NCBI RefSeq assembly: GCF_010450875.1
Contig: NZ_CP048422.1
Span: 2,949,001 to 3,013,000 of the forward strand
Source: Sphingomonas insulae
GTDB lineage: Bacteria; Pseudomonadota; Alphaproteobacteria; Sphingomonadales; Sphingomonadaceae
DNA length: 64,000 nucleotides
Direction: 5' to 3'
Below, one piece after another: positions 17,634-40,357 of the stretch. The position numbers and the translations under genes are program-made. The notes under the pieces were generated by a model. The model made no database searches and had not been told where the DNA came from. It saw only the letters and a list, made by a program, of their open reading frames with translations. Position 1 is the first letter of the stretch; every line of letters starts with the position of its first letter.

Positions 17634-19103
17634 ATGGAGGAGGAGGATTGGACGGTCCCTTGGGCCGGCGCGACGAGAAGCTACGCGGGCTGGGTCCCGA
17701 ACGTGCGCAGCCATCTTTCCTTCAGCGTGATCGGAGCCTCCAGACGTGCCGAGGCCTATTCGCGATCCTATCATGACGGCACCTCCAGGCTCGTCGTAGC
17801 GATCGAACGCAGGACTTCGCACGACTATCCCTGGCCGCAGTGGCTGGTTCGTCGCCTCTGGCCGGATCTGACCCAGCACTGGCTAATGGAGGGGAAGACC
17901 CGGCCGGCTCGCGTCTTCTACCCCGAGCCTGCCAACTCCGTGCCCGTCGATCCCGACCTGACGCGCGACCGGCAGGGCATGCTCGTCGGACGCGTGCACG
18001 TTTTCCCGTACCAGGAAGAGCCCGTCCCGAAAGACAATCAGGACGTGGCGATCAAGGCGATCCGCGAGGAGCTGCTTCTCGCGCCCGCGAACCCGGACGA
18101 TGCGGAGCTCGACGCGCTGCACCAGGAGATCGTCTCCCGCGCCATGAACGGCTCGCTCAACCGTATCGAGGTGCAGTTCGCGCTGCTCCGCACAGGGGAG
18201 CTCCGTCTGTGGTATGCGGAAAAGGGGACGCCCACGCTCGACCCCGCCAGCGATGATCCCGAAGACGACCTGCGCAAGTTCGCGGAGCAGGCGTACTTCT
18301 TCATCAAGGACGTGGTCCACGATCACACCCACCACGATCCGTCATCCGATCAGATCACGCCTCTGGTTCAGATCAATTCGGACAAGGCCGACGCGAGTCA
18401 CCTCGGGGAGGTCGCCTGGCGTCGGGAGACGCTCTGGAGTCTCTCCCGGGAGATCGAGCGACTGAACCGCGACGGCGGTCTGGTCGACAGGCGCCGCTCG
18501 CTCGGTATCGTCGCCTACGCGCAGGCATTCCAGCAGGGGATGATGGGGCACCTCCGCGATCCGGATAAGGCCAGCGGATTCAGAGCGGCACCTGCCGTCT
18601 ACGACTATGACTTCGCACACCTCAAGGAATCGATACGGTCGAGCATCGACGTCGCCAGCGCGGCGAAGGCCCAGTTCGTCCAGCTGACGATCGCCTTCGT
18701 CGCCACGGCGATATCGGCGATATCGCTGGTCGCTTCGCTCACCAGCGCCCACAACGGCGTTCAGACGCGAGACCCTGCCGGCTCACCAAAGGACGGTGTC
18801 AGCTTCGCCCATGGCGACGGCGCCATAGCGATCCTGGCGTGGAACCCGTTCCTGACCGGCGGTACCATCGCAATCGTTCTCCTGGGCGTTCTCAGCGCCA
18901 CGCTCGCCGACGGCGAGGCCGGACTGTTCAACTCGCTGCAACGGGTTATATCCCAGCTGTCTCGAGCGACGTCGATCAGTCTGGCTCGCAGCTCCCGCAA
19001 GCAGGTAGCGATCGACTGGGGAATGCACGTGGTCGCCGCGTTGCTCGCGCTTGCAGGCGCGATCGGCTGCCTCGTGGTGCTGACCACCAGCCTCGGCGCT
19101 TGA
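17634..19103 (+). CDS. Large membrane protein, unknown function
   Basis: A 489-residue protein. The N-terminal 330 residues are soluble and match no family I recognise. Three to four transmembrane segments lie near the C-terminus (about 350-375, 400-425 and 460-488). It has a His/Asp-rich stretch HDHTHHD near 230. It is followed 32 bases later by the dGTPase gene on the same strand. This soluble-plus-membrane design next to a nucleotide-depleting enzyme would suit a sensor or effector, but that is inference. Confidence 0.65.
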   Translation: MEEEDWTVPWAGATRSYAGWVPNVRSHLSFSVIGASRRAEAYSRSYHDGTSRLVVAIERRTSHDYPWPQWLVRRLWPDLTQHWLMEGKTRPARVFYPEPANSVPVDPDLTRDRQGMLVGRVHVFPYQEEPVPKDNQDVAIKAIREELLLAPANPDDAELDALHQEIVSRAMNGSLNRIEVQFALLRTGELRLWYAEKGTPTLDPASDDPEDDLRKFAEQAYFFIKDVVHDHTHHDPSSDQITPLVQINSDKADASHLGEVAWRRETLWSLSREIERLNRDGGLVDRRRSLGIVAYAQAFQQGMMGHLRDPDKASGFRAAPAVYDYDFAHLKESIRSSIDVASAAKAQFVQLTIAFVATAISAISLVASLTSAHNGVQTRDPAGSPKDGVSFAHGDGAIAILAWNPFLTGGTIAIVLLGVLSATLADGEAGLFNSLQRVISQLSRATSISLARSSRKQVAIDWGMHVVAALLALAGAIGCLVVLTTSLGA

Positions 19104-19135
19104 CGCCACCGTTCCAGCCACAGGAAGACCGGCCG

Positions 19136-20467
19136 ATGTTCTGGACTGAACGACGCAGCGGACGGCTCAGGCATCTCGACGACGCCCGATCCGAGTACGG
19201 GATAGACTATGCCCGCGTGGTCCACTCGGGATCCTTCCGGCGGCTCCAGGGCAAGACGCAGATCCTGGCGCTCGGCGACGACGATTTCTATCGGACACGC
19301 CTGACCCACTCGATGGAGGTAGCGCAAGTCGCCGAAGGCGTCGTGCAGCAGCTGCGTCACTCGGGTGCGATGGCTGGTAGCGACGACCTTCTTCCCAGCA
19401 CATCGCTGATCTCGGCGATCGGGCTTGCCCATGACATCGGGCACCCGCCATTTGGTCACGGGGGCGAACTCGCGCTCAACTACTGCATGCGGGATGCTGG
19501 CGGCTTCGAAGGTAATGCCCAGACACTTCGGATACTCGCGCGGCTTGAAGGATATGACGCCGACCATGGCGCCGATCTTACCCGTCGGACACTGCTCGGT
19601 ACGCTGAAATACCCCGTCGTGCGCAATGCCGCGCTGAACGCAGTACTTGTCCCGGCCCTCGATCCGGGTCCGACGACCTTCGCCCCTTTGGATCGCGCCT
19701 CCTGCAAGCCAGTGAAGGCCTACTACGAGGAGGAGGCTGACGTCGTCTCGTGGATTCTCGCGCCCCTCCCCGCAGCTGACCGGACGCGGTTCGAGGAACT
19801 ACGCGCCGGTGAAAGCGGTCACGGCAGAACACGGCACAAGTCCTTCGACTGCAGCATCATGGATGTCGCCGATGATATCGCCTACGGCGTACACGATCTC
19901 GAGGACGCGATCGCGCTCGGTCTCGTCGGCCGCGACTGCTTCCAGGAGAGGCTGGATCCCACTCGCTGCGAGACGCTCGTCTCCGCCCTGCGCGACCGTC
20001 CGCTCGGCACCGGCGGCTATGATGGCTTCCTCGACGCCCTCTTCGGCGATCCGGGAGCACGCAAGCGCGCGATCGGGAGGCTGGTGCACCACTTCCTGCG
20101 CGCTGTGTCGCTCAAGGTAGAGGATAGCTTCGAGACCCCCCTGCTGTCCCTGCGCGCCTTGCTGCGCCCCGACGATCGGGCACTGCTCGACGACCTCCAG
20201 TCTCTCGTCGTCACCGAGGTGATCGAGAGTCCGGGCGTCCAGCACCTCGAGTTCAAGGGGCAAAGGATGGTCGTCGCCGTCTTCGAGGCGATGGCATCGG
20301 ACCCGAGGCGCCTCCTCCCGACCTCCGTACACATAGACTACGAGAAAGCCGGGCGCAGTAAGCGCGTCATCTGCGACTATGTCGCGTCGATGACGGACGG
20401 ATCCCTGCTCAAGACCTACGAACGGCTCTTCAGCCCCCGCATGGGGTCGGTCTTCGACCGCCTCTAG
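19136..20467 (+). CDS. dgt: dGTPase-family HD phosphohydrolase, anti-phage type
   Basis: Deoxynucleotide triphosphohydrolase, 443 residues from ATG 19136 with an AGGAAG site. The HD metal site is assembled from His58 (RTRLTHSMEVAQ), His99-Asp100 (AHDIGHPPFGHGGE) and a later Asp in IMDVADDIAYG. The opening SGSFRRLQGKTQ is diagnostic for the Dgt family. Some bacterial dGTPases of about this length deplete dNTPs to stop phage replication (Tal and co-workers, 2022). The accessory neighbourhood makes that more likely here than housekeeping. The gene converges with a PPDK-like gene, the stops overlapping by 4 bases. Confidence 0.88.
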   Translation: MFWTERRSGRLRHLDDARSEYGIDYARVVHSGSFRRLQGKTQILALGDDDFYRTRLTHSMEVAQVAEGVVQQLRHSGAMAGSDDLLPSTSLISAIGLAHDIGHPPFGHGGELALNYCMRDAGGFEGNAQTLRILARLEGYDADHGADLTRRTLLGTLKYPVVRNAALNAVLVPALDPGPTTFAPLDRASCKPVKAYYEEEADVVSWILAPLPAADRTRFEELRAGESGHGRTRHKSFDCSIMDVADDIAYGVHDLEDAIALGLVGRDCFQERLDPTRCETLVSALRDRPLGTGGYDGFLDALFGDPGARKRAIGRLVHHFLRAVSLKVEDSFETPLLSLRALLRPDDRALLDDLQSLVVTEVIESPGVQHLEFKGQRMVVAVFEAMASDPRRLLPTSVHIDYEKAGRSKRVICDYVASMTDGSLLKTYERLFSPRMGSVFDRL

Positions 20468-21834: not shown

Positions 21835-22613
21835 TCGTTGTTCCTCGCACATGTCGTTCTATCACCGTCGGCATCGGCCAACGACGGCTGTTAGCAGGAT
21901 GGAGCCTTAGAACGAAGCTGCCGGACGTAGTGTTAAAGAGATACGGCGAATCGCTCGGTGTCGACCGATAACCCCTGCCGTATCTCAAGCGCCGGGTCGA
22001 TGCGGCTACGAGGGCTACGGAAGCATCTGCGCCAGCCTGACCTGGATTGATAAGGATAGCGGACGTCGCTCAGCCACGCTGAATGGCGGCTCTCTACAAC
22101 CTTAAGCATCCCCGGGACGGCCCCTTAATTGGTCGCGTTGCTGCCAGACGGCTTCAGGTCGACCGAGTGGCAGTTTTGGCATGAAGCTGTCGTTAAATTT
22201 GGAGCGACCAACGACGCATCTTGGTCGACACCCGCCGCAGCCACGACCCATGCTGACGACCCAATCCCGGCCATTCATGCGCCCCCTTCCGCTGCCCCAA
22301 ACCTGCCCCTCATTCATGTGAGCGGACCAACAGCTTGGGCGGACCCAGCCAGCAGCTTGGAACGGCATAAATTGGGACTGTTCTTCCGTGGTCAGCTGCC
22401 GTTCACTATTGGCGGTTCACCCATTTTTGAACGATAGTAGCATCCTCTTCGAGGAGGATGAGAAGCGCGGCTGTTACGCCTTTCCAAGCTGGTCTAACTC
22501 GCTTTCGGCGTCGGTATCGACGGATAGGGCGATTACGCCAAGGCGTAGTGAGCCAGACACTGAGCGTTCAGCCAGCACTGTCCACGAGCGCCGGGTTCGG
22601 TCATGGAGAGACA
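21835..22613. other. Gene-free interval, about 780 bases
   Basis: No convincing coding on either strand. It contains degenerate repeat-like stretches (22120-22205 and 22380-22435) in the style of the other intergenic repeats. A hairpin CATCCTC/GAGGATG lies at 22441-22460. Promoters for the leftward PPDK-like gene and the rightward nuclease must be here. Confidence 0.5.
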
Positions 22614-23411
22614 ATGTTAAGCTTCCCACGGTGCATGTCGTCGATCATCGGCGTCGCCATTGCCCTTGTCGCTATCCAGCCGGCAGCGGCGGCGACCAAA
22701 TGCCCGACCCATTTTGCTGGTGGAGTGGAGCCGGCGCTGGTCAATCCGAAGCTGTCCCGCAGTGCGACCGAGCTATGCAATCAGCGCTTCGTCGTCCTGC
22801 ATTCTGCGATCACCCGGACTCCACTTTACGTCGCGGAGCATCTGACGCGTGCCGGGATCGCGGCTGCGCGCGACTACGATCAGCGTGATAACCGCTTTCA
22901 TGCCGATCCCCGGCTGCCTCCTGCCGACCGGGCGGAGTTGGGGGACTATGTGCGGTCAGGGTTCGACCGTGGCCACATGGCACCCTCGGGCAACATGAAC
23001 GATGAGGAATCGGACTATGAAAGTTTCAGCCTCGCCAACATCGTCCCCCAAATTGGGGCGCTGAACCGCAACAGCTGGGCGGACATGGAGAACTATGTTC
23101 GCACCCTGACGACAAAGCTGGGTGACGCCTATGTCGTCACGGGACCGGCCTATGAGGGCAAGACGATCAAGGCGCTGAACGGGCGCGTGCTGGTGCCGAC
23201 GTCGACTTGGAAGGCGATGTACGTGCCGGGTCAGGGTGCTGGTGCCTGGATCGCCACCAACACCGTGAACCCACGCTGGCAGGTTATTTCAATCGCGGAG
23301 TTGGCGCGCCGGATCGGGATCGATCCGTTTCCGCGGCTGGCGGCTGCAACTAAGGCCAAGGTCCCCGCATTCCCTAATTTCGGGCGCGATCGCGCCGAAC
23401 GTGAGAGGTGA
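22614..23411 (+). CDS. Secreted DNA/RNA non-specific endonuclease (NucA type)
   Basis: A 265-residue beta-beta-alpha-metal nuclease. Residues 1-27 are a signal peptide ending AAAA. The catalytic motif FDRGHMAPSG places the general-base His at 121, and the metal-binding Asn (142) is in ANIVPQIGALNRNSW. ATG 22614 has a GGAGAG site; the frame is open upstream but unrelated. It degrades nucleic acid in the periplasm or outside the cell, for nutrition or attack. A small acidic protein follows with nearly no gap. Confidence 0.88.
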   Translation: MLSFPRCMSSIIGVAIALVAIQPAAAATKCPTHFAGGVEPALVNPKLSRSATELCNQRFVVLHSAITRTPLYVAEHLTRAGIAAARDYDQRDNRFHADPRLPPADRAELGDYVRSGFDRGHMAPSGNMNDEESDYESFSLANIVPQIGALNRNSWADMENYVRTLTTKLGDAYVVTGPAYEGKTIKALNGRVLVPTSTWKAMYVPGQGAGAWIATNTVNPRWQVISIAELARRIGIDPFPRLAAATKAKVPAFPNFGRDRAERER

Positions 23412-23415
23412 ACTG

Positions 23416-23667
23416 ATGACGATGAAGCCCTTTGACGATGACTCCGCTTCAACCACGATCGGCGAGCTGGCCGTCGAGAACGGCACCGGTGCAGTCACGC
23501 TGTCTGGATCGCTAGAGATCACCCGCGACAAGGCGGGGCTGAAGCGGGCGCAGGCGCTGAAGACGCTCGCCGATGCGATCTGCCAGGAACTGGAGGCCGA
23601 CGATTTACCGGATCATGTTGCGGTCGCGGCAGCGACAACGCAGGCTGTGGCTAACCCATTTGCTTGA
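23416..23667 (+). CDS. Small conserved acidic protein after the nuclease
   Basis: An 83-residue protein from ATG 23416, four bases after the nuclease stop, with a GAGG site within that stop region. It has the recognisable pattern GELAVENG...VTLSGSLEITRDKAGLKRAQALK ending NPFA, seen in conserved hypothetical proteins of proteobacteria. No signal peptide. The pairing raises the thought of an inhibitor of the nuclease, but the nuclease is exported and this is not, so it is only a guess. Confidence 0.7.
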   Translation: MTMKPFDDDSASTTIGELAVENGTGAVTLSGSLEITRDKAGLKRAQALKTLADAICQELEADDLPDHVAVAAATTQAVANPFA

Positions 23668-23827: not shown

Positions 23828-25282
23828 ATGGCATCTGCCCTGGGGGCGGTGAGTAGCAAAGACCGATGGCGCCCGTTCGCCCGTTCTCAGTTCGGGACGA
23901 GGCGAAGGAGCGTGGCAGGGGGAATGCTGCATGTCGACGATGGCGGCAGGTTTTTCCTGGCCGATGACGGGATGCAGGCTCGCCTCGACGCTGACGAGCT
24001 TGACAGTGGTGACGCCGCTTTCCTGGCACGGACTGGTCTCCTGCGTCGACCGGGTCTGCAGACGCACGTCGCAACGTTCACCGCCGCCCGCAGACGCTGC
24101 ACGGCCGGTCCGTTGGACTACCTGATCCTCGTTCCGACGCTCCGCTGCAATCTCGCCTGTTCCTACTGTCAGGTGTCGAGGGCGGATGTCGGCTCGCGAA
24201 GGCACGACTGGTCCGAAGAGAGGCTCGCCGCCGTGCTGGCCATCATTAGCGGTCTGGAGGCGCGTGCAGTCAAGATCGAGTTTCAGGGTGGCGAGCCGAC
24301 CCTTCGGCCGGACCTGATCCGCAGGGTAATCGACGCGGTTCCTCCCGGCGTCGACGCTACCTTCGTCGTCTGCACGAACCTTCAGGAAATCGGACCGGAG
24401 GTGCTGTCCGTGTTCGACCGGGAGGACGTCCAGATCAGCACGTCGCTTGACGGTGCAGCCGCCACGCATGGACGCCAGCGCACCGGCGCGGTCGATCGTA
24501 CCGACATCTTCCTCAGCAACCTGGACTTCCTGCTCGATCGCTACGGACCCGGAAAGATCTCCGCACTGCCGACCATCGATCCCGTCTCGCCTCCTCCCGC
24601 CTCCGAGCTGATCGGGGCGTTCTCCTCGCGGGGTCTCCATTCGATCTATCTAAGGCCAATCAACTACCAGGGGTTCGCCCGCAAGCGGCATCCTCACGCC
24701 CGCGATTTGAACGCGGATTGGCGGCGCTACCACGAGGAGTTCGTCAGGACGCTGATCGCGCGTAACTGGGCCGATCGCACCGTCGTGCTTGAGGAGAGCT
24801 ACTTCAGCCTGTTGCTCCGGCGCATCTTCCGGCCGGGACAGGACCGACACGTCGATCTGCGCAATCCGAACCCGGTCGGTCGCGACTACGTCGTGATCGA
24901 TCACGACGGGCAGGTCTACCCTACCGACGAGGCGCGCATGCTGACCAGGTCGGGCGTGATCGACCTCGCCATCGGGGACGTGGAACGCGGATGGGACACG
25001 CCAGAGCGCGCCGCGTTGGACGCCGCCTCCACCAACGACGGCGATCCGCACTGCGAGGCGTGTGCCTACAAGCCGTTCTGCGGTCGGGACTTGGTCGACG
25101 ACGTCGCCCGCTACGGCAGGATCGACCTGCCGCGACCGGAGACTGAGTTCTGCCGTCGGCATCTGCACCTCTTCGATCTCGCCTTCGAGCTGATCCACTC
25201 GGATGACGAGGCCGTGCTCTTCTCCCTGCGGCGCTGGCTCGGCCTGGCGGGAGACGACGCCCGCTTGGCGATGCGGCGATGA
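23828..25282 (+). CDS. hxsB: His-Xaa-Ser system radical SAM maturase HxsB
   Basis: A 484-residue radical-SAM/SPASM-type enzyme. The S-adenosylmethionine 4Fe-4S site is CNLACSYC (Cys107, 111, 114), followed by EFQGGEPTLRPDL. A C-terminal auxiliary-cluster region has CEACAYKPFCGRD plus a later EFC. The N-terminal 90 residues match the lead domain of HxsB. It is predicted to modify HxsA, with HxsC. The next gene overlaps by ATGA. Assignment is by this architecture and the adjoining hxsC and hxsA. Confidence 0.85.
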   Translation: MASALGAVSSKDRWRPFARSQFGTRRRSVAGGMLHVDDGGRFFLADDGMQARLDADELDSGDAAFLARTGLLRRPGLQTHVATFTAARRRCTAGPLDYLILVPTLRCNLACSYCQVSRADVGSRRHDWSEERLAAVLAIISGLEARAVKIEFQGGEPTLRPDLIRRVIDAVPPGVDATFVVCTNLQEIGPEVLSVFDREDVQISTSLDGAAATHGRQRTGAVDRTDIFLSNLDFLLDRYGPGKISALPTIDPVSPPPASELIGAFSSRGLHSIYLRPINYQGFARKRHPHARDLNADWRRYHEEFVRTLIARNWADRTVVLEESYFSLLLRRIFRPGQDRHVDLRNPNPVGRDYVVIDHDGQVYPTDEARMLTRSGVIDLAIGDVERGWDTPERAALDAASTNDGDPHCEACAYKPFCGRDLVDDVARYGRIDLPRPETEFCRRHLHLFDLAFELIHSDDEAVLFSLRRWLGLAGDDARLAMRR

Positions 25283-26352
25283 TCCCGCTCGCGCTCGCCG
25301 CCTCCAGCGATGCCGAGGCGCCGTTCGTGACGCGGCTGGCCGGCTTGGAAGGAAACGATGCCGGCGGCAGCCGGTGCATCGCCTCGTCCGCCGAGGACAG
25401 TCTGTGGAGCGGGCCTCACGGACTACTGAGGATCGAGCATTCGCGCGAGGCGGTCTCCGGCGACGTCGTGCTGGTGCGTCCCGCCGAGGGTCGGCTCGAC
25501 CGGCTCCTTCGATCAGGATCGCGGCACAATTCGCTGCTGGTCACCGAGCAGTGCGACCAGCTGTGCGTGATGTGCTCGCAACCGCCGAAGAAGACGCACG
25601 ACGACCGCTTCGACCTGCTGCGTGACGCGTGTCTGCTGGCCGATGCGGGCATGACCATCGGCATTACCGGCGGGGAGCCGACGCTGCATCGCGAGAGGCT
25701 GCTCGGCATGATCGAGGACGTGCTGGCGGCCCGGCCTGACCTGTCCTTCCACGTCCTCACCAACGCCCAGCACTTCCGACGCGAGGACGTCTTCCGCCTG
25801 AGGCGACCGGAGTACTCGAAGGTCGTTTGGGGCATCCCGCTCTACTCGGCCGATCCGCTCACCCACGACCGCATCGTCGGCAAGGTAGGCGCCTACGAGC
25901 GGCTGATCGACGGCTTCGCTCACCTCATGCTCGCCGGAGCGCGGATCGAACTCCGGACGGTGCTGACGCGCACGACCGTCGACGGCATCGTCGATCTCGC
26001 GGACATGGTGGTGCGCGATCTCGCCCATGTCGAGCAGTGGTCGCTCATGGGACTGGAGAACATCGGCTTCGCCCGCAACCGGTGGAGCGAACTCCACGTC
26101 GATCTTCGCGCCGACTTCGCGCCGGTCGGGCACGCCCTCGACGTGGCGACGCTCCGCGGTGTTCGCGCCAGGCTCTTCAACGTGCCGCTGTGCCACGTAC
26201 CGGAACCGTTTCGTCACGCGGCCGTGGCCTCCATATCCGACTGGAAGCAGCGGTTCGGCGAGGCCTGCTCCGCCTGCCGAGCAAGATCCGCCTGCTCGGG
26301 ATTTTTCGAATGGCATCCTCCAGCCCTCCTCGAAGAGGTGACACCCCTATGA
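25279..26352 (+). CDS. hxsC: His-Xaa-Ser system radical SAM maturase HxsC
   Basis: A 357-residue radical-SAM enzyme. The cluster motif is CDQLCVMCSQPPKK (Cys92, 96, 99), with the CSQPP extension characteristic of HxsC. It is followed by ITGGEPTLHRE and a C-terminal CSACRARSACSGF that could hold a second cluster. The N-terminal GDVVLVRP stretch is also typical. The start overlaps hxsB (ATGA) and the stop overlaps hxsA (ATGA), so three genes are tightly coupled. The chemistry it performs on its peptide is not established. Confidence 0.87.
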   Translation: MIPLALAASSDAEAPFVTRLAGLEGNDAGGSRCIASSAEDSLWSGPHGLLRIEHSREAVSGDVVLVRPAEGRLDRLLRSGSRHNSLLVTEQCDQLCVMCSQPPKKTHDDRFDLLRDACLLADAGMTIGITGGEPTLHRERLLGMIEDVLAARPDLSFHVLTNAQHFRREDVFRLRRPEYSKVVWGIPLYSADPLTHDRIVGKVGAYERLIDGFAHLMLAGARIELRTVLTRTTVDGIVDLADMVVRDLAHVEQWSLMGLENIGFARNRWSELHVDLRADFAPVGHALDVATLRGVRARLFNVPLCHVPEPFRHAAVASISDWKQRFGEACSACRARSACSGFFEWHPPALLEEVTPL

Positions 26353-26963
26353 AGAAGCGCAGGTTCATGATCTCCAGCCTCCTGATGGCCGGCATCGCGC
26401 CGCTGCCGCCCCTGCACGCGCAGGACGCCGGAACGGCGCCGCCCGCGGGCGGGCCCGATCCGGACGACGGCCAGTGGGTGCAGCGATTCGCGCAGGATCA
26501 TGGGTTCCTCCTGGCGCAGCACCGTTCTCATTCCAGCCACGCCTCGCACAGCAGCCATCGGTCCGGCTCGAGCGGCACCTATCGGGCTCCCGTCTACACG
26601 CCGAGGGCGCCGAGCCGACCTCGCGTCACGGCTCCGTCATCCTCGTCTTCTTCATCCTCGACGCGCTCCCGCTCGCGCAACACTCGGAGCACGCCGGACT
26701 CGTCGGTCCTACCGTCCTCGCCGGCCATCACCGACAACCCGTTCTCCACCTACACTCCACCCAGCACGGCGACGATCGAGTCGGTCGTGCGCCGCGTGCA
26801 GATCGGACTACAGGCGCAGGGCTACTACCATGGCGCGTTCGACGGCGTCGTCGGCAAGGAGACCAGAGCGGCGCTTGTCAGGTTCCAGACGGACAAGAGC
26901 CTGACCGTGACCGGCACGATCACGCCCGAGGTGCTGGATGCGCTTCGCATTCGCGCGCAATAG
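26349..26963 (+). CDS. hxsA: His-Xaa-Ser repeat protein HxsA, putative modified substrate
   Basis: A 204-residue exported protein. Signal peptide at 1-25 (PLHAQ). Residues 58-72 read HRS HSS HAS HSS HRS, five His-Xaa-Ser triplets, which name the family and are the presumed sites of radical-SAM modification. A Ser/Arg/Pro-rich linker (about 75-125) follows. A C-terminal peptidoglycan-binding domain (about 142-200, QIGLQAQGYYHGAFDG and FQTDKSLTVTG) would anchor it to the wall. ATG 26349 overlaps the hxsC stop. Confidence 0.9.
   Translation: MKKRRFMISSLLMAGIAPLPPLHAQDAGTAPPAGGPDPDDGQWVQRFAQDHGFLLAQHRSHSSHASHSSHRSGSSGTYRAPVYTPRAPSRPRVTAPSSSSSSSSTRSRSRNTRSTPDSSVLPSSPAITDNPFSTYTPPSTATIESVVRRVQIGLQAQGYYHGAFDGVVGKETRAALVRFQTDKSLTVTGTITPEVLDALRIRAQ
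26520..26564 (+). repeat. Five His-Xaa-Ser codon triplets in hxsA
   Basis: Nine-base units encode HRS, HSS, HAS, HSS and HRS in succession, directly after the short pre-repeat domain. They are the likely target of the HxsB and HxsC enzymes. Confidence 0.85.
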
Positions 26964-27336
26964 GGTCGTCACCCATGCGGTCGCGCTCGTCGCCGGGGTG
27001 CTGCTCGCGTGGCAGGCGCTGCCGGTGTGGCGCGAGGCGGTGATGCGCTGGAACCAGAAGGACTATGGTCTTCTGGTCGAGCAGTGCGACGGTGCCATGC
27101 GAGATCACTACCAAGCCAAGATGCGGGCCGCCGACGAGCCGTCGAGGGACACGGGGCTCGCGCTGCAGGCCGGCGAGGTGGGGCTCATCGTCTGCCAGGA
27201 CTACGACCTCTACCAGAAGCGGCTGGTCCAATGGGGGCTGCGGGAGGACGAGCTCGCGCAGATGCGGCTGAAGGCGATCGAGGCGCGGGCGGGCGATCTG
27301 GACGAGGTGGTGGGGACCCATGAGATACGCTTCTAA
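26938..27336 (+). CDS. His-Xaa-Ser system small membrane protein (TIGR03982-like)
   Basis: A 132-residue protein with one N-terminal transmembrane helix (about 10-28), then a compact domain with two cysteines (EQCDGAMRDHYQAK and GLIVCQDYD). The length, position after hxsA and the QDYDLYQKRL segment agree with the family known as TIGR03982, found only in His-Xaa-Ser loci. It overlaps hxsA by 26 bases and the next gene by 17, so it is firmly in the operon. Its role is unknown; the paired cysteines might form a disulfide or hold a cofactor. Confidence 0.75.
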   Translation: MRFAFARNRVVTHAVALVAGVLLAWQALPVWREAVMRWNQKDYGLLVEQCDGAMRDHYQAKMRAADEPSRDTGLALQAGEVGLIVCQDYDLYQKRLVQWGLREDELAQMRLKAIEARAGDLDEVVGTHEIRF

Positions 27337-28594
27337 CCTGACTCTCGCCGTCAGCTCGGCCCTGTTCGCTGTCGCCGTCCTGGTCGCCTGCGGTCGGAGC
27401 GACGAGAGTGGATCGGCGGCGTCGACCTTCACGGATCCGCCCGCGACCGATGCCATGCGGCTCGGAGCGCTTCGGAAGGCGGCGCTCGCAAACGGCTTCG
27501 TGCGGGCGAGCGAGCTGGCGGTCCCGGTCGTGCCCGCCCGCCACGACGTCGGTCGCCTCATCTTCGCCTCGCCCATCATGAGCCTTAACGGGCGCATCAG
27601 CTGCCAGGACTGCCATCTGGACCAGTTCGGCTCCGCGGACGGTCTGCCGAACGCGATCGGCGTCGGTGGAGAGGGAGCGGGCGCCGCCCGCCTCCACAGC
27701 GGCGGACGCATCCTGCCCCGCAACGTCCTTCCGTTCTGGGGCCGCGGAAGCCGCGGCTTCGACACGTTCTTCTGGGACGGACGGGTGCAGAAGGTCGACG
27801 GCCGCGTCGTGAGCCAGTTCGGCGTTCATGCACCCTCGACCGATCCGATGATCGTGGCCGCCCATCTCCCATCCGTGGAGGTGCGCGAGATGGTCACGGA
27901 CACGCCCCAGATCCGCGACGGGCTCATGTCCGAGGACGTGGGTGCGGCCGCCTCGATCCAGTCGACGCTCGCCAGCCGCTTCGCCGCCGATCCGGCGATC
28001 GGTCCGAAGCTGGCCGCCGCCTACGGCCTGCCGCGCGACCGGGTGTCCTTCCGCGAGGTCACGGATGCGCTCGCGTCGTTCATCCGCTTCAACTTCCGCA
28101 TTAGGCCGACAAGGTTCGAGCGCTTCGTCCACGACGGCGGGTCCCTGTCGCGGCGTGAAATGGCGGGAGGCGTGCTGTTCTACGGACGCGGCCGCTGCGC
28201 CGCCTGCCACGGGGGACCATACTTCAGCGACATGAAGTTCCACTCCGTTGCCTTCCCCCAGGCCGGCTTCGGCAAGAACGGCTTCGGCGTCGACGAGGGC
28301 CGCTACAACACCACTCTGAATCCGAAGGACCGCTTCCTCTTCAGGACGCCGCCCCTCTACAACGTGGCCAAGACTGCGCCCTACTCTCACTCCGGTTCGG
28401 TCGTGCGGCTCGAGGACGCGATCGTCGCGCACTTCGATCCATTGCGCCTCGTCGACACCCGCGAGATGACGGTGCGCGAGCGGTCGGATCTCTACGCCAG
28501 GCTGGGCACCGCCTCCCGCGAGACGCTGCCGTCGGCTCTCACGGACGAGGAGGTCCGCCAGCTCGCCGCCTTCCTCCGGACGCTCAGCTTCTAG
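27320..28594 (+). CDS. MauG-like dihaem cytochrome c peroxidase-family lipoprotein
   Basis: A 424-residue exported protein. The lipobox LVAC gives lipidated Cys24. Two haem-c sites are CQDCH (95-99) and CAACH (293-297), each with the following conserved context (SLNGRISCQDCH; GRGRCAACHGGPYFSD). MauG-like proteins use a high-valent dihaem state to oxidise protein side chains, so it probably completes the maturation of HxsA after the radical-SAM steps. Such a partner is known in other Hxs loci. Its 3' end overlaps the opposite-strand gene by 11 bases. Confidence 0.88.
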   Translation: MRYASNLTLAVSSALFAVAVLVACGRSDESGSAASTFTDPPATDAMRLGALRKAALANGFVRASELAVPVVPARHDVGRLIFASPIMSLNGRISCQDCHLDQFGSADGLPNAIGVGGEGAGAARLHSGGRILPRNVLPFWGRGSRGFDTFFWDGRVQKVDGRVVSQFGVHAPSTDPMIVAAHLPSVEVREMVTDTPQIRDGLMSEDVGAAASIQSTLASRFAADPAIGPKLAAAYGLPRDRVSFREVTDALASFIRFNFRIRPTRFERFVHDGGSLSRREMAGGVLFYGRGRCAACHGGPYFSDMKFHSVAFPQAGFGKNGFGVDEGRYNTTLNPKDRFLFRTPPLYNVAKTAPYSHSGSVVRLEDAIVAHFDPLRLVDTREMTVRERSDLYARLGTASRETLPSALTDEEVRQLAAFLRTLSF

Positions 28595-29288
28595 GGGCGG
28601 GATCCGCGCCGTCTGCTTCGGGCGGGGCGGTCATCTCCCTATCCGTCCCGTCCGCTTCCGGTTCGACCGCCTGCGGGGCCTCCTCGCCGTCGGTCGTGAT
28701 GGTTTCGGAGCCAGTCATCAGGGCCGCCTCGGAGCTCGAGACGGTCGGTGCGGCGGTCGGACCGAGACCCGCGATGGCGGCGCTGACTCGCGCAATCCGA
28801 GCGTCGACGCCCGTTTCGCCGGAGCCGAACGACTGTCGATACCTATTGACCGCGGACTGTTCGGAGAACCAGAACGCCTCCGCCTGATCGCCCGCCTCGT
28901 CGAGCAGGCGTCCCGCGATCCGGTCGAAGGCGAAGCATCGGTCGCGGACGCTGTCGGAGGATCTGGGGGCGAGCGCCGCGTAGCAGTTCTCGCTGTATAG
29001 CCTGGCGCCGGAGGACCCGAGCGCCTCGACGGATCGTCGTGCGTCGGCGGCTGCCGTTCCGACGATCGTCTGCAGGCTGGGCTCCGCAGGTGTCGCCTTC
29101 GTGGCGGGCGGCGGCGATGCGGCCATCGGCCGCGCGGCAACGGCCTGCTGCGGAGCAACGGTAGCCGGAGGCTCCTCCGCGTCGGGGCGTAGCGCACGCA
29201 CGAGCAGGAAGACGGCGACGAGCGCGATCGCTACGCCCACCTTGCCGGGGGGACGTGTCACGGGACCGGCGTTCGAGCCCGCGGCCAT
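28584..29288 (-). CDS. Single-span membrane protein, unknown function
   Basis: A 234-residue protein with one N-terminal transmembrane helix (about 17-33), then a proline/alanine linker. A central helical domain carries cysteines (SENCYAALAPRSSDSVRDRCF) and aromatic residues (QAEAFWFSEQSAVNRY). An acidic tail ends the protein. No family recognised. It lies between the Hxs operon and the TerY-P triad, converging with the MauG-like gene, and may be co-transcribed with the small basic gene upstream (29335-29538). Confidence 0.6.
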   Translation of the reverse strand: MAAGSNAGPVTRPPGKVGVAIALVAVFLLVRALRPDAEEPPATVAPQQAVAARPMAASPPPATKATPAEPSLQTIVGTAAADARRSVEALGSSGARLYSENCYAALAPRSSDSVRDRCFAFDRIAGRLLDEAGDQAEAFWFSEQSAVNRYRQSFGSGETGVDARIARVSAAIAGLGPTAAPTVSSSEAALMTGSETITTDGEEAPQAVEPEADGTDREMTAPPEADGADPAPRS

Positions 29289-29600: not shown

Positions 29601-30278
29601 ATGGCCGACCTGGAACAGATGCCGTTCGGCGGAGCCGAGTTCGCGGAGAATCCGGAGCCGAGATGCCCCTGCCTGCTGCTGCTCGACACATCGAGTTCGA
29701 TGGGTGGTCGACCGATCGGCGAACTGAACGCTGGCCTCACCGCCTTCCGGGACGAGCTGAACGCGGACGCGCTCGCCGCCAAGAGGGTCGAGGTGGGGAT
29801 CGTGACCTTCGGTCCGGTCCAGGTGGCCACCGAGTTCACGTCCGCCTCGAACTTCTACCCTCCGCATTTCGAGGCCAGCGGCGTCACCCCGATGGGTGAG
29901 GCAATACGGCGCGGCATCGAACTGCTGCGCGCCCGCAAGGACGAATACCGCGCCAATGGCGTGGCCTACTATCGTCCCTGGATCTTCCTGATGACCGATG
30001 GCGCACCGACCGACGCATGGTCGGGCGCGGCGGATCTCGTCCGCCAGGGGGAAGAGCGCAAGGAGTTCATGTTTTATGCCGCGGGCGTCGAAGGTGCCGA
30101 CATGGCGACCCTGGGCCAGATTGCGGTACGTGCGCCGTTGAAGCTGAAGGGCCTGGCCTTCCGCGAGCTGTTCGCCTGGCTGTCCAGCTCACTCGGCTCG
30201 GTGTCGCGTTCCAATCCGGGGGAGCCGGTCCCGCTCGCCAACCCCGCCGCCCCGAACGGCTGGGCGGTGGCCGACTGA
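29601..30278 (+). CDS. TerY-like von Willebrand factor A protein (YegL homologue)
   Basis: A 225-residue single-domain vWA protein. The metal-ion-dependent adhesion site is DTSSS (29-33), completed by Thr in GVTPMGEA and Asp in [12 protein letters not shown] 29601 has a GGGGGAA site. It is the first gene of a vWA/PP2C/kinase triad, known as TerY-P from tellurite-resistance islands and as yegL-yegK-yegI in E. coli. It probably binds phosphorylated or metal-bound partners as a scaffold. Confidence 0.88.
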
Positions 30279-30285
30279 AGAGCGC

Positions 30286-31044
30286 ATGTGGACCTGGGTC
30301 GCGGCATCAGTCCGCGGAACATCGCACGAGAGGACCGGCACGCGCAGACAGGATGCGTTTCGCTGCTTCTCCGTCGGGAACGGTGGAACGCTGGTCGCCG
30401 TGGCCTGCGACGGTGCCGGCAGCGCCAGCCGTGGGGGCGAGGGAGCCTCGCTCGTCGCGCGTCGGCTGTCCCTCGCGGCGGAAGCGCATCTGCGAACCTC
30501 GACTGATCTCCCGTCTGACGAGCTCGTCGGCGATTGGGTCGACTCCGTCCGCGACCTGATCGCCGCGGCGGCGGAGCGGCGAGGGCTGCGCCCGCGCGAC
30601 TTCGCGACCACGCTGGTCATGGTCGTCGCGATGCCGGGTCGAACCCTGACGGTCCATGTCGGCGACGGGGCCGCGGTCGGACGGCTGACCGACGACGGCC
30701 GCTGGGTGTCACTGAGCTGGCCGGAGAACGGGGAGTTCGCGTCGACGACCTTCTTCGTCACGGACGACGTCGAGGTTCGGCTGCGCATCGAGCGGACCGA
30801 TCGCGATCTCGACCGGATAGCGGTGATGACCGACGGGATCGAACGTCTCGCGCTCGATCTGGCCGGCGGCGCACCGCACCGCCCCTTCTTTCAAGGGATT
30901 AGCGAACCCGTGGCGAAGAGCGCGGTCGCGGGACGCGATGGCGCACTGTCCCGCAAGCTGGCGCAGTATCTCTCTTCGGACGCGATCAACGCCCGCACGG
31001 ACGACGACAAGACCCTGATCGTCGCGAGCAGGCGCGGAACGTGA
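30286..31044 (+). CDS. PP2C-family serine/threonine phosphatase (YegK homologue)
   Basis: A 252-residue protein. PP2C metal motifs are present: DGAGSASRGGEGA near residue 40, VHVGDGAAVG near 125, MTDGIER near 182 and DDDKTLIVA near the end. It presumably removes phosphates placed by the kinase encoded next. It starts 7 bases after the vWA gene, and its stop overlaps the kinase GTG as GTGA, so production is coupled. Confidence 0.88.
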   Translation: MWTWVAASVRGTSHERTGTRRQDAFRCFSVGNGGTLVAVACDGAGSASRGGEGASLVARRLSLAAEAHLRTSTDLPSDELVGDWVDSVRDLIAAAAERRGLRPRDFATTLVMVVAMPGRTLTVHVGDGAAVGRLTDDGRWVSLSWPENGEFASTTFFVTDDVEVRLRIERTDRDLDRIAVMTDGIERLALDLAGGAPHRPFFQGISEPVAKSAVAGRDGALSRKLAQYLSSDAINARTDDDKTLIVASRRGT

Positions 31045-33185
31045 CGCCGCTCTACATCGGCGGGCGGCCGGTGAGGCTCGGCGAACGGGTCGGCCGGGGC
31101 GGCGAGGGCGAGGTCTTCGTCCTGGCGGATCGGCCGGATCAAGCGATCAAGCTCTACGGCAGTCCCGACGACCGCAGGCGCGAGAAGATCGAGGCGATGG
31201 TCGCGGCGGGGCTGGCCGCCCGCTCCGACCTGGTCGCCTTCCCAGTTGCGATGGTCCAGGGGCCGGGTGGCGCGTTCGCGGGCTTCGCGATGCGTCTGGT
31301 GCGAGGACACAAGCCTCTCTTCGAGCTCTACGCGCCGGGCGCCCGCAAGGTCGCCTTCCCCGAAGCGGACTACCGCTTCCTCGTGCGGTCGGCGGCAAAC
31401 GTGGCCGTGGCAGTGGCCAAGGTGCACGAGGCCGGCGTGGTCGTGGGGGACATCAACCATTCGGGCATCCTCGTCTCGGACAGGGCGACGGCGGCGCTCA
31501 TAGACGCCGACAGCTTCCAGTTCGGCGAGCGTCACCTCTGCCGCGTCGGCGTACCGGAATACACGCCTCCCGAACTGCAGTCGCGGCGGCTGGACGGCAT
31601 CGTAAGGACGCCGGAGCACGACGCGTTCGGGCTCGCCATCGTGATCTTCCAGCTCCTCTTCATGGGACGACATCCGTTCGTCGGCCGCTATCGGGGCAGC
31701 GGAGATATGCCCATCGAGCGGGCGATCGCGGAGCATCGCTTCGCCTATTCGGCCAGGGGGCGGAGCGACATGTCGCCGCCGCCCGGGGCCGCCCGTCTGC
31801 AGGAGTTCCCGGATGAGATCGGCGCCATGTTCGAGGCGGCGTTCGGCGGTGCCCCGAGCGCCCGGCCCCGCCCTCCGCAGTGGGCCGAGGCCTTACGCCG
31901 GCTGGAAGGCGGGCTGTCGCGGTGCTCCAGGAACGACATCCACTACTTCCCCAGTGCGGCGGGCGGCTGCTCGTGGTGCAGGATGGAGCGCGAGTCGGGG
32001 ATCGTGCTGTTCGTCGCACCTCTTCCGAAGGGGGCGGCGCGATCCGATCCGGGCGCAGCCGGCTTCGATCTTGCCGGCGTCTGGAGGAGCATACAGGCGG
32101 TAAGGCTCCCGGCGGTCGACGGGCTGCTGCCCCCTCTGACGCAGACCGCACCGCAATCCAGCAGCGAGGTTGCAGCCTTCGCAGGCGCGATACGGACCCG
32201 ACGCCGCTCGGGTCTCGCCCTGCTCCTCGTCGCGGCGGCGCTGCTCGGGTGGTCGGGCGACCTGTGGCTGCTCTGCCTGCCGCTCGCTTGGTGGGGCTAC
32301 CATCTCACCTGGCAGGGCGGCTCTGATCTGCGGCGCTTCGTCGAGCGCCATGGGCGAGCGCGATCGGCATACGAGGCCGCTGTCGTGGATTGGCGGAAGC
32401 GCATCGGCATCGAGGAGGCTGTCGCACGCCGCCGGACGCTGGAGAAGGCCAAGAGTACCTACGATGGCCTGCCCGGCGAGGAGAAGCGGCGGCTGGGTGA
32501 ACTGACGACCAAGCGGAGGGAGAACCAGCTGCGGCGGCACATGGAGAGCTTTCCGCTCAGACGCGCGAAGATCCGAGGGATCGGCGCCGGCAAGCTCGCC
32601 ACGCTGGCGTCATACGGCATCGACACCGCCGCGCAGGTCAGGCGCGATCGGGTGCTGGCAATTCCGGGCTTCGGTCCGGTCAACTCGCAGGAGCTGATCG
32701 CTTGGCGCGCTTCGGTGGAGAGCCGCTTCGTCTACAATCCCTCCCCTACGCAGCAGGACCGTCAGGACGAGGACCGGGTCCGTCGGGAGATCGCGAACGA
32801 AGCCGGCAGGCTGCGCGGCGAGCTCTCCTCGGGAGCCGCCGACCTGCGTGCGACCGCAGCGGCGGTCGAGCAGCGCATGACCGTGTCCGATCCGGTGGTC
32901 AACCGGGCTTATCACGACCTGGAGCAGGCACGCATCGATCTGGAAGCCCTCGGCACAGCCGCTCCCACGATTGCGCCGAGCCCTGCTCCGACCACGTTAA
33001 GCGGCGGTGTGGGTGGAGCGGCTTGGAAGCCGACTAGGCCTCCCAAGCCAGTCGCCGGCACTCCGGCCTGCCCAAGTTGCGGAGGTCCCATGATTCGCCG
33101 GGCGGCGCATCGGGGCGCGCGCACCGGCAGGCCCTTCATGGGGTGTGCGCGGTATCCGACCTGTCGAGGCACCCGGTCGACATGA
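31041..33185 (+). CDS. Membrane-linked protein kinase with helix-hairpin-helix and zinc ribbon (YegI homologue)
   Basis: A 714-residue protein. The kinase domain (1-300) has the glycine loop GRGGEGEVF (18-26), Lys37 in AIKLY, GDIN with Asp137 as catalytic loop, and IDADSF (Asp155) in place of DFG. A short Cys-containing segment and hydrophobic spans follow near 395-430. A coiled-coil stretch is next, then a helix-hairpin-helix (RGIGAGKLATLASYGID...IPGFG) near 515-560. A topoisomerase-type zinc ribbon (CPSCGGP...CARYPTC) closes the protein. The last two suggest nucleic-acid contact. This layout is that of YegI-type kinases of the TerY-P triad. Confidence 0.88.
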   Translation: MTPLYIGGRPVRLGERVGRGGEGEVFVLADRPDQAIKLYGSPDDRRREKIEAMVAAGLAARSDLVAFPVAMVQGPGGAFAGFAMRLVRGHKPLFELYAPGARKVAFPEADYRFLVRSAANVAVAVAKVHEAGVVVGDINHSGILVSDRATAALIDADSFQFGERHLCRVGVPEYTPPELQSRRLDGIVRTPEHDAFGLAIVIFQLLFMGRHPFVGRYRGSGDMPIERAIAEHRFAYSARGRSDMSPPPGAARLQEFPDEIGAMFEAAFGGAPSARPRPPQWAEALRRLEGGLSRCSRNDIHYFPSAAGGCSWCRMERESGIVLFVAPLPKGAARSDPGAAGFDLAGVWRSIQAVRLPAVDGLLPPLTQTAPQSSSEVAAFAGAIRTRRRSGLALLLVAAALLGWSGDLWLLCLPLAWWGYHLTWQGGSDLRRFVERHGRARSAYEAAVVDWRKRIGIEEAVARRRTLEKAKSTYDGLPGEEKRRLGELTTKRRENQLRRHMESFPLRRAKIRGIGAGKLATLASYGIDTAAQVRRDRVLAIPGFGPVNSQELIAWRASVESRFVYNPSPTQQDRQDEDRVRREIANEAGRLRGELSSGAADLRATAAAVEQRMTVSDPVVNRAYHDLEQARIDLEALGTAAPTIAPSPAPTTLSGGVGGAAWKPTRPPKPVAGTPACPSCGGPMIRRAAHRGARTGRPFMGCARYPTCRGTRST

Positions 33186-37962: not shown

Positions 37963-38374
37963 AAACTTCCCCCTTGTCGGAGTCAACGTGCTTTGTCGTA
38001 GCTAATTTGTCCAGCGCAACAATGCAGCAATTTGGATCTGTTCGTCGATACACCCGGCCATGCGGAGCAAATCGGAGCGACTTTGTTTTTCAAGCGTGGG
38101 TGCCGCACGACGGTTCAGCCTGGCCGAACCTGTTGCTCAGCCATGTACTAGTTCTAAAATTTTTGGTTGGAGGATGCTTAGATGATCGGCTGCTATTGGT
38201 GGATAAGACATTCGTTAACGCTACGACGATAGACTGGCTATAGTCAGGAGCCGCCGCTTTTCCTATCTGTCCTCGTGACCACGATGCAGACGTAAGCAAC
38301 CCCATTTTACAGGAACCGTTTCTGCCGTTCGCTCTTTTCGCGTTTGGTACGATTTCCCTGGTGTCACAACCGCT
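37963..38374. other. Interval between envelope operon and insertion sequence
   Basis: About 410 bases. It must contain the promoter of the leftward OmpA-led operon. It is slightly AT-rich around 38140-38240. No open frame is credible, and no tRNA or direct repeat that would mark an island end was seen. Confidence 0.45.
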
Positions 38375-38453
38375 CGAGACTGTTGAAAAAGGCCTGCGCG
38401 AAATCGGCGTGGCGGATGGCTGGTGACGCCGGCACGGTAGGATACGCCGCGTG

Positions 38454-39830
38454 TCAGGCCGGCGCAGCCTGCCGGGCGAGCAGCTGAAGGTTGTATGCCG
38501 CGGCGGCCATGGTGAACTTTTCGGCGGCTCCTGACAGGCCTCGCAGCTTGAGCGTTCGTAGCCCCAGGTTGCGTTTCAGGTGGCCGAACACGCGCTCGAT
38601 CCGCTGTCTTCGACGCCGTGCGTGCACATAGGCGTCGGTGCCGGCAAGGGCGCGCACGGTATCGCGGGCTTCCTCGCTGACAAGCCGGGTGACACCCCGC
38701 TTCGGACCGATGGTGCATTGCGGCTTCGGCTCGCAGGCGGTGCAATCGGCCGGCCGGCTTCGGTAGACGCGCACCTGCTTGGTCCGGTTGGTGCCGCAAT
38801 AGCGGCACCTGCTTGGTCCGGTTGGTGCCGCAATAGCCGAGCAGCTTGTCCGCCGGACAGCGATAGGCATCCACTTCCCGGTCGTAGCGGAAGGCATCCC
38901 GGGTGAAGAAGGCGTCCCGCTGGCGGGTCCGGTCGATGACCGGGATGTATGGCGTGATGTTCCGGTCGATCAGCCAACCGAGCAGCGGACCGCTACCATA
39001 AGCCTTGTCGGCCGAGAGACTGGCGGGTTCGATGCCCAGCCTGGTGCCGGCGCGTGACACCAGCGTCCGAGTGGCCGCCACCTCGGCTGCGAAGCGGGCG
39101 GGCGTCGCCTCCACGTCGAGGATGCAGCCGGTGTCGAGGTCGAGCAGGGGGTTAATGGCGTATGCGTAGCGCGCCGGTCCGTGCTTGCAGGTGAGCGCCG
39201 CCTGCGGGTCGGTCGGCGAGATGCTGGTCGGATCGACGGGCGCTGGTTCGTCGGGGTCCGGCGGCAACGCGGCATCGAGCGCCGCCAGATATTCGGCGAC
39301 GGGTCGCGATATGCTTTCCCCGGCACGAAGCTCGTCTGCAGCGTCGGCCCCCTTCAGCTTCTTCTCGCGGCTGGCGTCGGCTATGATCGTGCTGCCGTCC
39401 ACCGCCAAGTCACGCCCCGTTACCAGCCCAGCCGCGGCGCACCGCGCGACTACCTGCTCGAATAGCAGACGATGTAGGTCGCAGGCGCGGAAGCGGCCGT
39501 GCCGGTTCTTGGAGAAGGTGGAATGGTCGGGCACTCGGTCGCTCAGATCGAGACGGCAGAACCAACGATATGCGAGGTTGAGGTGCACCTCCTCGCAGAG
39601 GCGGCGCTCCGAGCGGACGCCGAACAGATATCCAACCAGCAGCATCCTGAGCATCAGCTCCGGGTCGATCGAGGGTCGCCCACTCGTGCTGTAGCTCGAC
39701 GCCAGCGCCTCGCGCACGAAGCCGAAGTCCAACACGCCGTCGATGCGTCGGAGCAGGTGGTCGACCGGCACATGCTCATTGCGCCGGAAACCATAGAACA
39801 GCGCCCCTGCGCCACCTGCCGACCCATCAT
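38454..39830 (-). pseudogene. IS1182-family transposase, two frameshifts
   Basis: DDE-type transposase. Recognisable blocks are VPVDHLLRRIDGVLDF, GRPSIDPELMLRMLLVGYLFG, LAYRWFCRLDL, DLAVDGSTIIADAS, SADKAYGSG and the C-terminal RRQRIERVFGHLKRNLG. The expected start MMGRQVAQG at 39830 is out of frame with ALFYGF by one base at the C-run 39803-39806. A 34-base tandem duplication at 38771-38838 then shifts the frame again, so the last 110 residues are read in another phase. The protein is not functional unless the sequence is in error. Confidence 0.85.
38771..38838. repeat. 34-base tandem duplication in the transposase gene
   Basis: Two adjacent copies (38771-38804 and 38805-38838) differ only in the last base. 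The length is not a multiple of three and explains the frame break; removing one copy restores the family-typical reading across YCGTNRTKQVRVYRS. Confidence 0.9.
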
Positions 39831-39909
39831 GTCCGTGATCCCCCACCGCCTTGCCGGAGTGAATCACGCCCTCGTCACCGTCGCAAGCAGCCGTTTTTCA
39901 ACAGCCTCG

Positions 39910-40357
39910 GACGGTTATGAGCCGCTCGTTAGCGCACGGACCCGTGCCCGTTTCAGGGCGTCAAAAGGGCGCGTCAAAAGGCCGCTCATACTTCGAGGGA
40001 CGACTAGGTCACGCCCCCCGCCCCCCTCTTAACGAACGGCAGCTTATTACGATTGGTCGCCCGAAAGCGGACAGGCCGCTCTCCACCAATAGCGAACATT
40101 CCCGTTTCACCATCGTTTTCGAGAATGCTGGTTGAGGTCATTACGCCGGAATAAGGAGTCACTCGCGCATGGAATGGCGAGTCATATCGACTGGAGCCAA
40201 CATCCGGGAAAACAAAGGGGTGTGGCGGGTTCCTTGAGAGGGATGCATTTTCCATTACCCCGTTCAGCCGGGCAATCGGCCCCTCATCGACTTGGAAGAT
40301 CGGCGTAGAACGCGCCAAACATATAGCCTGGTATACCAGTCCCGGATGCGGGCAGGG
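39910..40357. other. Gene-free interval with repeats
   Basis: About 450 bases between the insertion sequence and the ATPase gene. It holds a short direct duplication GCGTCAAAAGG (39958-39983) and the 50-base dispersed repeat. No gene seen. Confidence 0.55.
40156..40205 (+). repeat. 50-base dispersed repeat, copy 2
   Basis: Matches the reverse complement of 6421-6470 at 47 of 50 positions. Contains the ACTCGC/GCGAGT hairpin arms. Confidence 0.7.

Follow-up and report, generated by a model that had tools for sequence, protein, structure and literature searches.

The His-Xaa-Ser (Hxs) system is catalogued in NCBIfam as a series of families (TIGR03976-TIGR03979, TIGR03981 and TIGR03982), and a literature search did not find an experimental study of its product. 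Because hxsB, hxsC and hxsA are named in five plasmid records that annotate no HxsD (the gene table being incomplete), we treat HxsD as a usual rather than an obligatory component. Here we describe an hxs locus of Sphingomonas insulae located in the window, by which we mean the whole stretch of 64,000 nucleotides that was analysed (contig NZ_CP048422.1, positions 2,949,001 to 3,013,000). The locus likewise contains the HxsA, HxsB, HxsC, TIGR03982 and TIGR03981 families, in the same B-C-A-3982-MauG order as the annotated Tritonibacter plasmid record NZ_CP136707, but differs from the catalogued system in that neither the named HxsD nor its divergent alphaproteobacterial form was found, and in that HxsB scores under its curated cut-off. 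That it is an HxsD-less variant of this known, uncharacterised system is well supported, and it is filed here as such rather than as a complete Hxs system. Our fuller reading, to which we give slightly better than even odds (about 0.55), is that HxsB and HxsC modify HxsA in the cytoplasm and that the TIGR03982 and haem proteins provide a redox step at the envelope.

Operon layout and family assignment

The five genes lie on the + strand and each overlaps the next. hxsB (23828-25282) encodes a SPASM-type radical S-adenosylmethionine (SAM) maturase of 484 amino acids (aa) and hxsC (25279-26352) a second radical-SAM maturase of 357 aa; these are followed by hxsA (26349-26963), encoding the 204-aa His-Xaa-Ser repeat substrate with its peptidoglycan-binding domain, by the gene for the TIGR03982 membrane-anchored protein (26938-27336, 132 aa), and by that for the TIGR03981 MauG-like di-haem protein (27320-28594, 424 aa, with a lipobox-like motif at C24). 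The overlaps measure 4 (hxsB/hxsC), 4 (hxsC/hxsA), 26 (hxsA/TIGR03982) and 17 bases (TIGR03982/MauG-like), confirming the 4-26 bases given by a first-pass annotation of the window made from its sequence. An NCBIfam profile search matched all five proteins to Hxs-system models, four above the curated cut-offs and HxsB below, which bears out the Hxs-type operon that this annotation had proposed. Its claim of an undescribed system is not supported, as all five families, the MauG-like one included, are already catalogued as Hxs components; specifically, the window's haem protein matches TIGR03981, named "His-Xaa-Ser system-associated MauG-like protein", so that a curated family name already links MauG-like proteins to Hxs.

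The two maturases are assigned as follows. HxsB scores 334.7 bits against TIGR03978 (E 8e-100; curated cut-off 370), its best family by a margin of 264 bits over the runner-up (70.4 bits), matches PF04055 in Pfam, and shares one tree with proteins named HxsB in plasmid records. Cys 107, 111 and 114 are each present in 92 of the 94 aligned HxsB rows, and the C-terminal Cys 409, 412, 418 and 442 in 91-94 of them. HxsC scores 307.4 bits against TIGR03977, above the cut-off of 267.9, with C92/C96/C99 and C330/C333/C339 invariant across 20 rows. The profile matches thus place the two radical-SAM genes as HxsB, under its cut-off though far ahead of any other family, and HxsC, as had been read from the sequence.

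HxsA scores 128.2 bits against TIGR03979 (cut-off 121.65) and carries a C-terminal peptidoglycan-binding domain (PF01471 in Pfam). Five tandem units, HRS HSS HAS HSS HRS, were read from the sequence at residues 58-72 (26520-26564, + strand). The longest H-x-S run is likewise five in all 16 rows of the Sphingomonadales clade to which the window belongs (see below), and runs of 4-7 units occur in 89 distinct HxsA, where the middle residue over 481 units is R in 224, S in 211, A in 27, G in 13 and another residue in 6. Cys is missing after residue 30 in 78 of these 89 proteins; window HxsA has no Cys at all, and intramolecular thioethers are therefore excluded in it. A second H-x-S block (GGHYSHTSHRSS and similar) is present in the HxsA of several MauG-negative Sphingomonadales (L052, L054, L056, L060 and relatives) and is missing from the window's clade.

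HxsD and a divergent HxsD-like ORF

The genome containing the window comprises five contigs and has a listed completeness of 100%; a TIGR03976 profile search of it gave no match to HxsD. Among 296 Sphingomonadales genomes drawn, 11 have HxsC over its cut-off, and none of the 11 has TIGR03976 above cut-off, the two matches at E 0.25 being at chance level. The search is able to find HxsD, since among 398 genomes of the phylum the model matches in 10 and exceeds its cut-off in 5.

Relatives of the locus were compared in a sample comprising the best 80 of 123 candidates fetched with HxsC, plus six annotated records. Because close relatives of the window's HxsC seeded the sample, its shares are not those of nature; one entry that is the window again (L005) was dropped from counts and tree. 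In four plasmid records a 'hypothetical protein' of 82-95 aa ends in the start of hxsB. BLAST clusters such open reading frames (ORFs) before hxsB from 37 loci together (a few of the cluster's 43 members being shadow ORFs), and Sphingomonadales hold a further group that has diverged more. Aligned with nine HxsD by hhalign, the HxsD-like ORFs score 37.0, whereas 200 column shuffles reach 19.7 at most and the reversed profile 14.5; the Sphingomonadales group reaches a probability of 97 to the first group and 11 to HxsD itself. A hidden Markov model of the nine HxsD, from which the HxsD of L120 and L127 is excluded, matches HxsD-like ORFs of L084, L089, L083, L113 and L079 at E 3e-5 to 2e-4, and an HxsB-like ORF lies 3' of HxsD in 10/10 TIGR03976 loci. 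Counting against HxsD identity, TIGR03976 reaches only 2 of 23 HxsD-like members (best E 0.01); of 10 database relatives it picks up a single one at E 1 (16.4 bits), and it gives no match at E 1 to two relatives whose UniRef names start 'His-Xaa-Ser system'. On these sequence comparisons the ORFs look like homologues of HxsD, outside the curated family because its cut-off of 50 bits is not reached. Such ORFs, mostly unnamed, explain why annotation shows many alphaproteobacterial loci as HxsD-less. In a Leptospira phage record (L038) the cassette reads hxsA-hxsD-hxsB-hxsC.

HxsD or an HxsD-like ORF is found in 59 of the 82 named loci with at least 600 bases before hxsB, a set that includes the window and one phage record and in which L111 is counted as HxsD-bearing; 34 loci supplied rows to the two models of the HxsD-like form (A2 and A3), and their own matches there arise by construction. 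The remaining 23 are not uniform. A short overlapping ORF in L057, L059 and L063 has diverged too far for a call, an overlapping frame is open in L076 and L077, and in L035 the annotated HxsB is unusually short; in L058, L065, L070, L073 and L074 nothing credible as HxsD was seen upstream of hxsB. The window and its clade make up the last twelve, in which any model match has E 0.2 or worse.

At the genome level, 7 of the 11 Sphingomonadales genomes that have HxsC over its cut-off show a match to A2 and A3 beside their hxs genes (E 1.9e-11 to 4e-27), several of them the same as or close to loci building A3, with only G062 (A3, 4.5e-19) and G049 (A2, 1.9e-11) clearly outside the training set. 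The same models find nothing credible in the window's genome (G000) or in G254, G236 and G140, the best match in G000 having E 0.011 and lying within a 703-codon frame. The missing HxsD of the first-pass annotation is therefore missing at the locus itself, and no credible copy was found elsewhere in the genome with either TIGR03976 or the divergent-form models.

Phylogenetic distribution

The history of the locus was followed on a tree of HxsB and HxsC with 94 rows, built by a quick search after loci with too short an HxsB or HxsC were dropped; its root is unsure, since it rests on a single very long phage branch. The window falls within a 16-row Sphingomonadales clade with full support (Shimodaira-Hasegawa-like approximate likelihood ratio test, 100). 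None of the 15 testable rows has an HxsD-like ORF (12 judged from the sequence before hxsB, 3 from a search of the genome), the sixteenth (L046) having too little DNA for a call, and at least two pairs of rows being near-identical. TIGR03982 is seen in 15 of the 16 rows, the exception being L039, which stops at a contig edge; 11 rows show the MauG-like gene, the remainder being short stretches or contig ends. The five-gene HxsD-less form that had been read from the window is thus real, and it is the state of this clade rather than unique to the window. In a neighbouring group of 26 rows (support 89), 21 rows have an HxsD-like ORF and TIGR03982 is seen only in L055, which holds all six genes; in L002, L051 and L067 the sequence stops before TIGR03982 could be seen. 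The six-gene form also occurs in rows near the root (L096, L117, L090, L093 and L094).

It is conceivable that an unrelated protein keeps the function of HxsD in these loci, the substitute being either the TIGR03982/MauG-like pair or a small ORF before hxsB (23416-23667, + strand, 83 aa), and we regard this as quite unlikely. The distribution within Sphingomonadales fits such a replacement, as the HxsD-like ORF is missing from 11 of the 12 rows in which the MauG-like gene is seen, and the neighbouring group described above shows the converse. Across the 78 named loci that allow a judgement on both traits, 13 have both an HxsD-like ORF and TIGR03982, 43 the HxsD-like ORF alone, 12 TIGR03982 alone, and 10 neither (about five of them unclear). 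As 13 loci outside the window's clade hold an HxsD-like ORF together with the MauG-like gene, and five relatives seem to hold neither, the MauG-like protein is not a simple replacement of HxsD, whose replacement was one of the options in the first-pass annotation. The fewest changes on the tree are four for HxsD, with nine rows uncoded, and seven for TIGR03982, with L002, L051, L067 and L081 coded as lacking it though they end 54-397 bases past hxsA. Only three independent pairs bear on the two traits, too few for significance, so no dependence between HxsD and TIGR03982 is shown.

In favour of the small ORF are its position, close to where HxsD would be expected, and its conservation in L039-L041, with whose ORFs alone it clusters, but it was found in only the four closest loci, window included, 107-161 bases before hxsB and with no overlap, and neither it nor HxsD was seen in L042-L045 or L047-L050. 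As a candidate HxsD it was rejected, hhalign giving probabilities of 0.1 to HxsD and 0.4 to the HxsD-like family. In the same four loci it accompanies a DNA/RNA non-specific endonuclease gene (PF01223) before hxsB (22458-23667 in the window).

Proposed mechanism and chemistry of the product

Our reading of the locus as an HxsD-less operon with a cytoplasmic and an envelope stage starts from what was computed, namely the gene order, the families, the absence of HxsD according to the models, the history of the clade, the His at a ligand position of the haem protein, and the pairing of TIGR03982 with the MauG-like gene; from these we infer the chemical steps, the order of events and the locations of the proteins. 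In the cytoplasm, HxsB and HxsC would modify the tandem His-Xaa-Ser units of HxsA with no HxsD helper. HxsA would then be exported and anchored on peptidoglycan through its C-terminal domain, where the TIGR03982 protein and the di-haem protein would act on HxsA, or employ it, as a redox partner driven by peroxide.

Several observations weigh against this reading. The HxsB score lies under the curated cut-off, and by NCBIfam profile HxsB is not especially close to cyclophane-forming families, its scores for PapB (70 bits) and for the nif11 maturase (65) exceeding those for YhhB (47) and AmcB (43). Export of HxsA is putative, read by eye from its N-terminus. The lipobox-like pattern of the MauG-like protein (LVAC24), also spotted by eye, recurs in only 48 of 119 homologues starting with Met, so a lipoprotein state is not general in the family; of the two-CxxCH MauG-like lipoprotein initially described, the two haem motifs stand, and the lipoprotein state would hold for part of the family. 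Finally, an HxsD too divergent for all three models may yet be encoded in the genome.

For the radical-SAM step, the likeliest single chemistry may be a carbon-carbon cross-link between His(i) and Ser(i+2), an imidazole cyclophane, which we propose by analogy and tentatively. SPASM enzymes are known to form three-residue i/i+2 cyclophanes, HaaB joining C2(His) to Cbeta(Ala) and YhhB C2(His) to Cbeta(Arg), and MscB joins C4(Phe) to Cbeta(Ser), also i to i+2 (PMC11002830). The guess is a good one because H-x-S has this same spacing: like the triceptide-forming HaaB, YhhB and MscB, the window combines a SPASM-type radical-SAM enzyme with an aromatic residue at i and a partner at i+2. It differs from them in that HxsB is no nearer to the NCBIfam cyclophane families than to other SPASM families, and in that those enzymes act on a short peptide, whereas the substrate here is a protein with a peptidoglycan-binding domain. 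Alternatively, Ser or His may be altered singly, for example by formylglycine-like oxidation, epimerisation or methylation, with no cross-link, a possibility that we likewise hold to be doubtful. HxsB belongs to the IPR023867 group, which includes AnSME (PMC9062424), and matches the anaerobic sulfatase maturase model at E 2e-10. The fixed His(i)/Ser(i+2) spacing with a variable middle suggests instead that both ends matter; this spacing is not independent evidence, because the units were found by that pattern. An elaboration that we consider very unlikely is that HxsB and HxsC make a ladder of His-Ser imidazole cyclophanes without HxsD, and that a bis-His di-haem enzyme (cf. MauG Y294H) oxidises this ladder on peptidoglycan; if true, cyclophane ladder and second oxidation together would constitute a new type of redox or metal site built from protein.

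Whatever the product, a natural HxsD-less version suggests that HxsB and HxsC can be retained without HxsD. The locus is the smallest set for reconstruction in a laboratory host, and would be useful mainly for learning what the Hxs product is.

The TIGR03982 and haem proteins

The TIGR03982 protein scores 80.2 bits against its family (cut-off 40), with C50, C86, D51, M54, R55, H128 and E129 among the columns invariant over 20 rows; its AlphaFold2 model is all-helical (mean predicted local distance difference test score 85). Its gene is found in 27/27 named loci with a MauG-like gene, and the sole locus with TIGR03982 but no MauG-like gene (L046) lies on a contig of 3.2 kb that stops directly behind TIGR03982.

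The MauG-like protein scores 383.7 bits against TIGR03981 (cut-off 340) and 71.3 bits against TIGR03791, the MauG family, whose cut-off is 443.85. With the di-haem enzymes MauG, BthA and MbnH (PF03150) it has two CxxCH motifs in common (CQDCH at residue 95 and CAACH at 293), and its WDG motif aligns with that of MauG relatives, in which the Trp is presumably the inter-haem residue. By alignment it differs from them at the position of the sixth ligand of the six-coordinate haem, where MauG-type enzymes have Tyr and peroxidases Met: here His371 is invariant in 121/121 aligned sequences, window included. In phmmer alignments His371 falls on Met in PDB 2c1u and 3o5c, and on Tyr in 6e1c ('Di-heme enzyme'), which we take to be MbnH. 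Nine of ten MauG relatives have Tyr at the ungapped distance of His371 from the PYxH motif and the tenth has Phe; MAFFT opens one gap there, and the ten that were aligned all lie below the TIGR03791 cut-off for true MauG (L151 and L152, missed by the ORF filter, were left out). No MauG above that cut-off was found in 299 genomes.

MauG and BthA have Tyr-His haem ligation; the near-infrared bis-Fe(IV) feature is lost in both BthA Y463H and MauG Y294H, and peroxide reduction is retained in BthA Y463H (PMC6405878). Given these variants and an invariant His at the Tyr/Met position, we predict a bis-His six-coordinate haem with peroxidase-type or other chemistry. A His at the position of MauG Tyr294 argues, at the level of sequence, against the bis-Fe(IV) chemistry of MauG here, and the label 'MauG-like' may be misleading, for which the invariant His would provide a sharp test. 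The haem protein may still oxidise modified HxsA.

It is also conceivable, if unlikely, that the repeats bind metal or have a structural role, and that the haem protein is an ordinary peroxide-defence peroxidase travelling with the operon. A distal-position His would allow a peroxidase role, to judge from BthA Y463H, and Glu187 and Glu190 (each 121/121) and Trp152 (117/121) are conserved in the alignment. The overlap of the haem gene with TIGR03982 and their invariable pairing fit a joint task better than a free-standing peroxidase.

Genomic neighbourhood

Directly beyond the operon, on the - strand, lies a gene for a membrane-anchored protein of no known family (28584-29288), with no Pfam or NCBIfam match at E 0.1, which recurs beside Sphingomonadales hxs loci. 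A protein of this type is found in 22 of 87 named loci, window included, and in 17 of the 22 it lies on the opposite strand before hxsB.

Three + strand genes follow: a VWA gene (29601-30278, PF00092), a PP2C gene (30286-31044, PF13672), and a kinase-zinc-ribbon gene (31041-33185), with PF01396 above cut-off at residues 677-713 and PF00069 at 27.2 bits, below its cut-off of 31.7. The TerY-P triad is defined by VWA, PP2C and a kinase with a zinc ribbon (PMC11090510), and as neighbours of the same make-up the genes at 29601-33185 are a TerY-P-like triad, outside the Hxs core. The window's triad differs in adjoining hxs, an association of which no mention was found in PMC11090510, and the part of the neighbours that was scanned yielded no recognisable restriction or CoCoNuT gene. 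Such a triad lies beside hxs in 9 of 87 loci (in 80 of the 87 the sequence extends 3 kb beyond hxsA), and these nine come from two distinct regions of the tree: the window, L040 and L041 in one, and L036, L095, L099, L105, L109 and L118 in the other. In the latter six, which are rhizobial, the triad starts within about 50 bases of the hxsA end, with 63-67% VWA identity to the window. A close VWA was seen in 20 genomes of the class, but hxs or lp genes are nearby only in the window's own. Three changes on the tree account for the nine loci, with the triad coded as lacking in short stretches unable to show it. Its position beside hxs is thus recurrent, not general.

Two loci, on an Aminobacter and a Mesorhizobium plasmid, have genes of the cyclic-oligonucleotide-based antiphage signalling system (CBASS) type near hxsBCA (L033, 1-3914; L034, 8166-12019), which is consistent with a mobile accessory region. 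The surroundings in the window also look like an accessory region, with transposase (PF05598) and AAA_21 ATPase genes downstream (38263-41569) and an HD-domain phosphohydrolase gene upstream (18839-20467).

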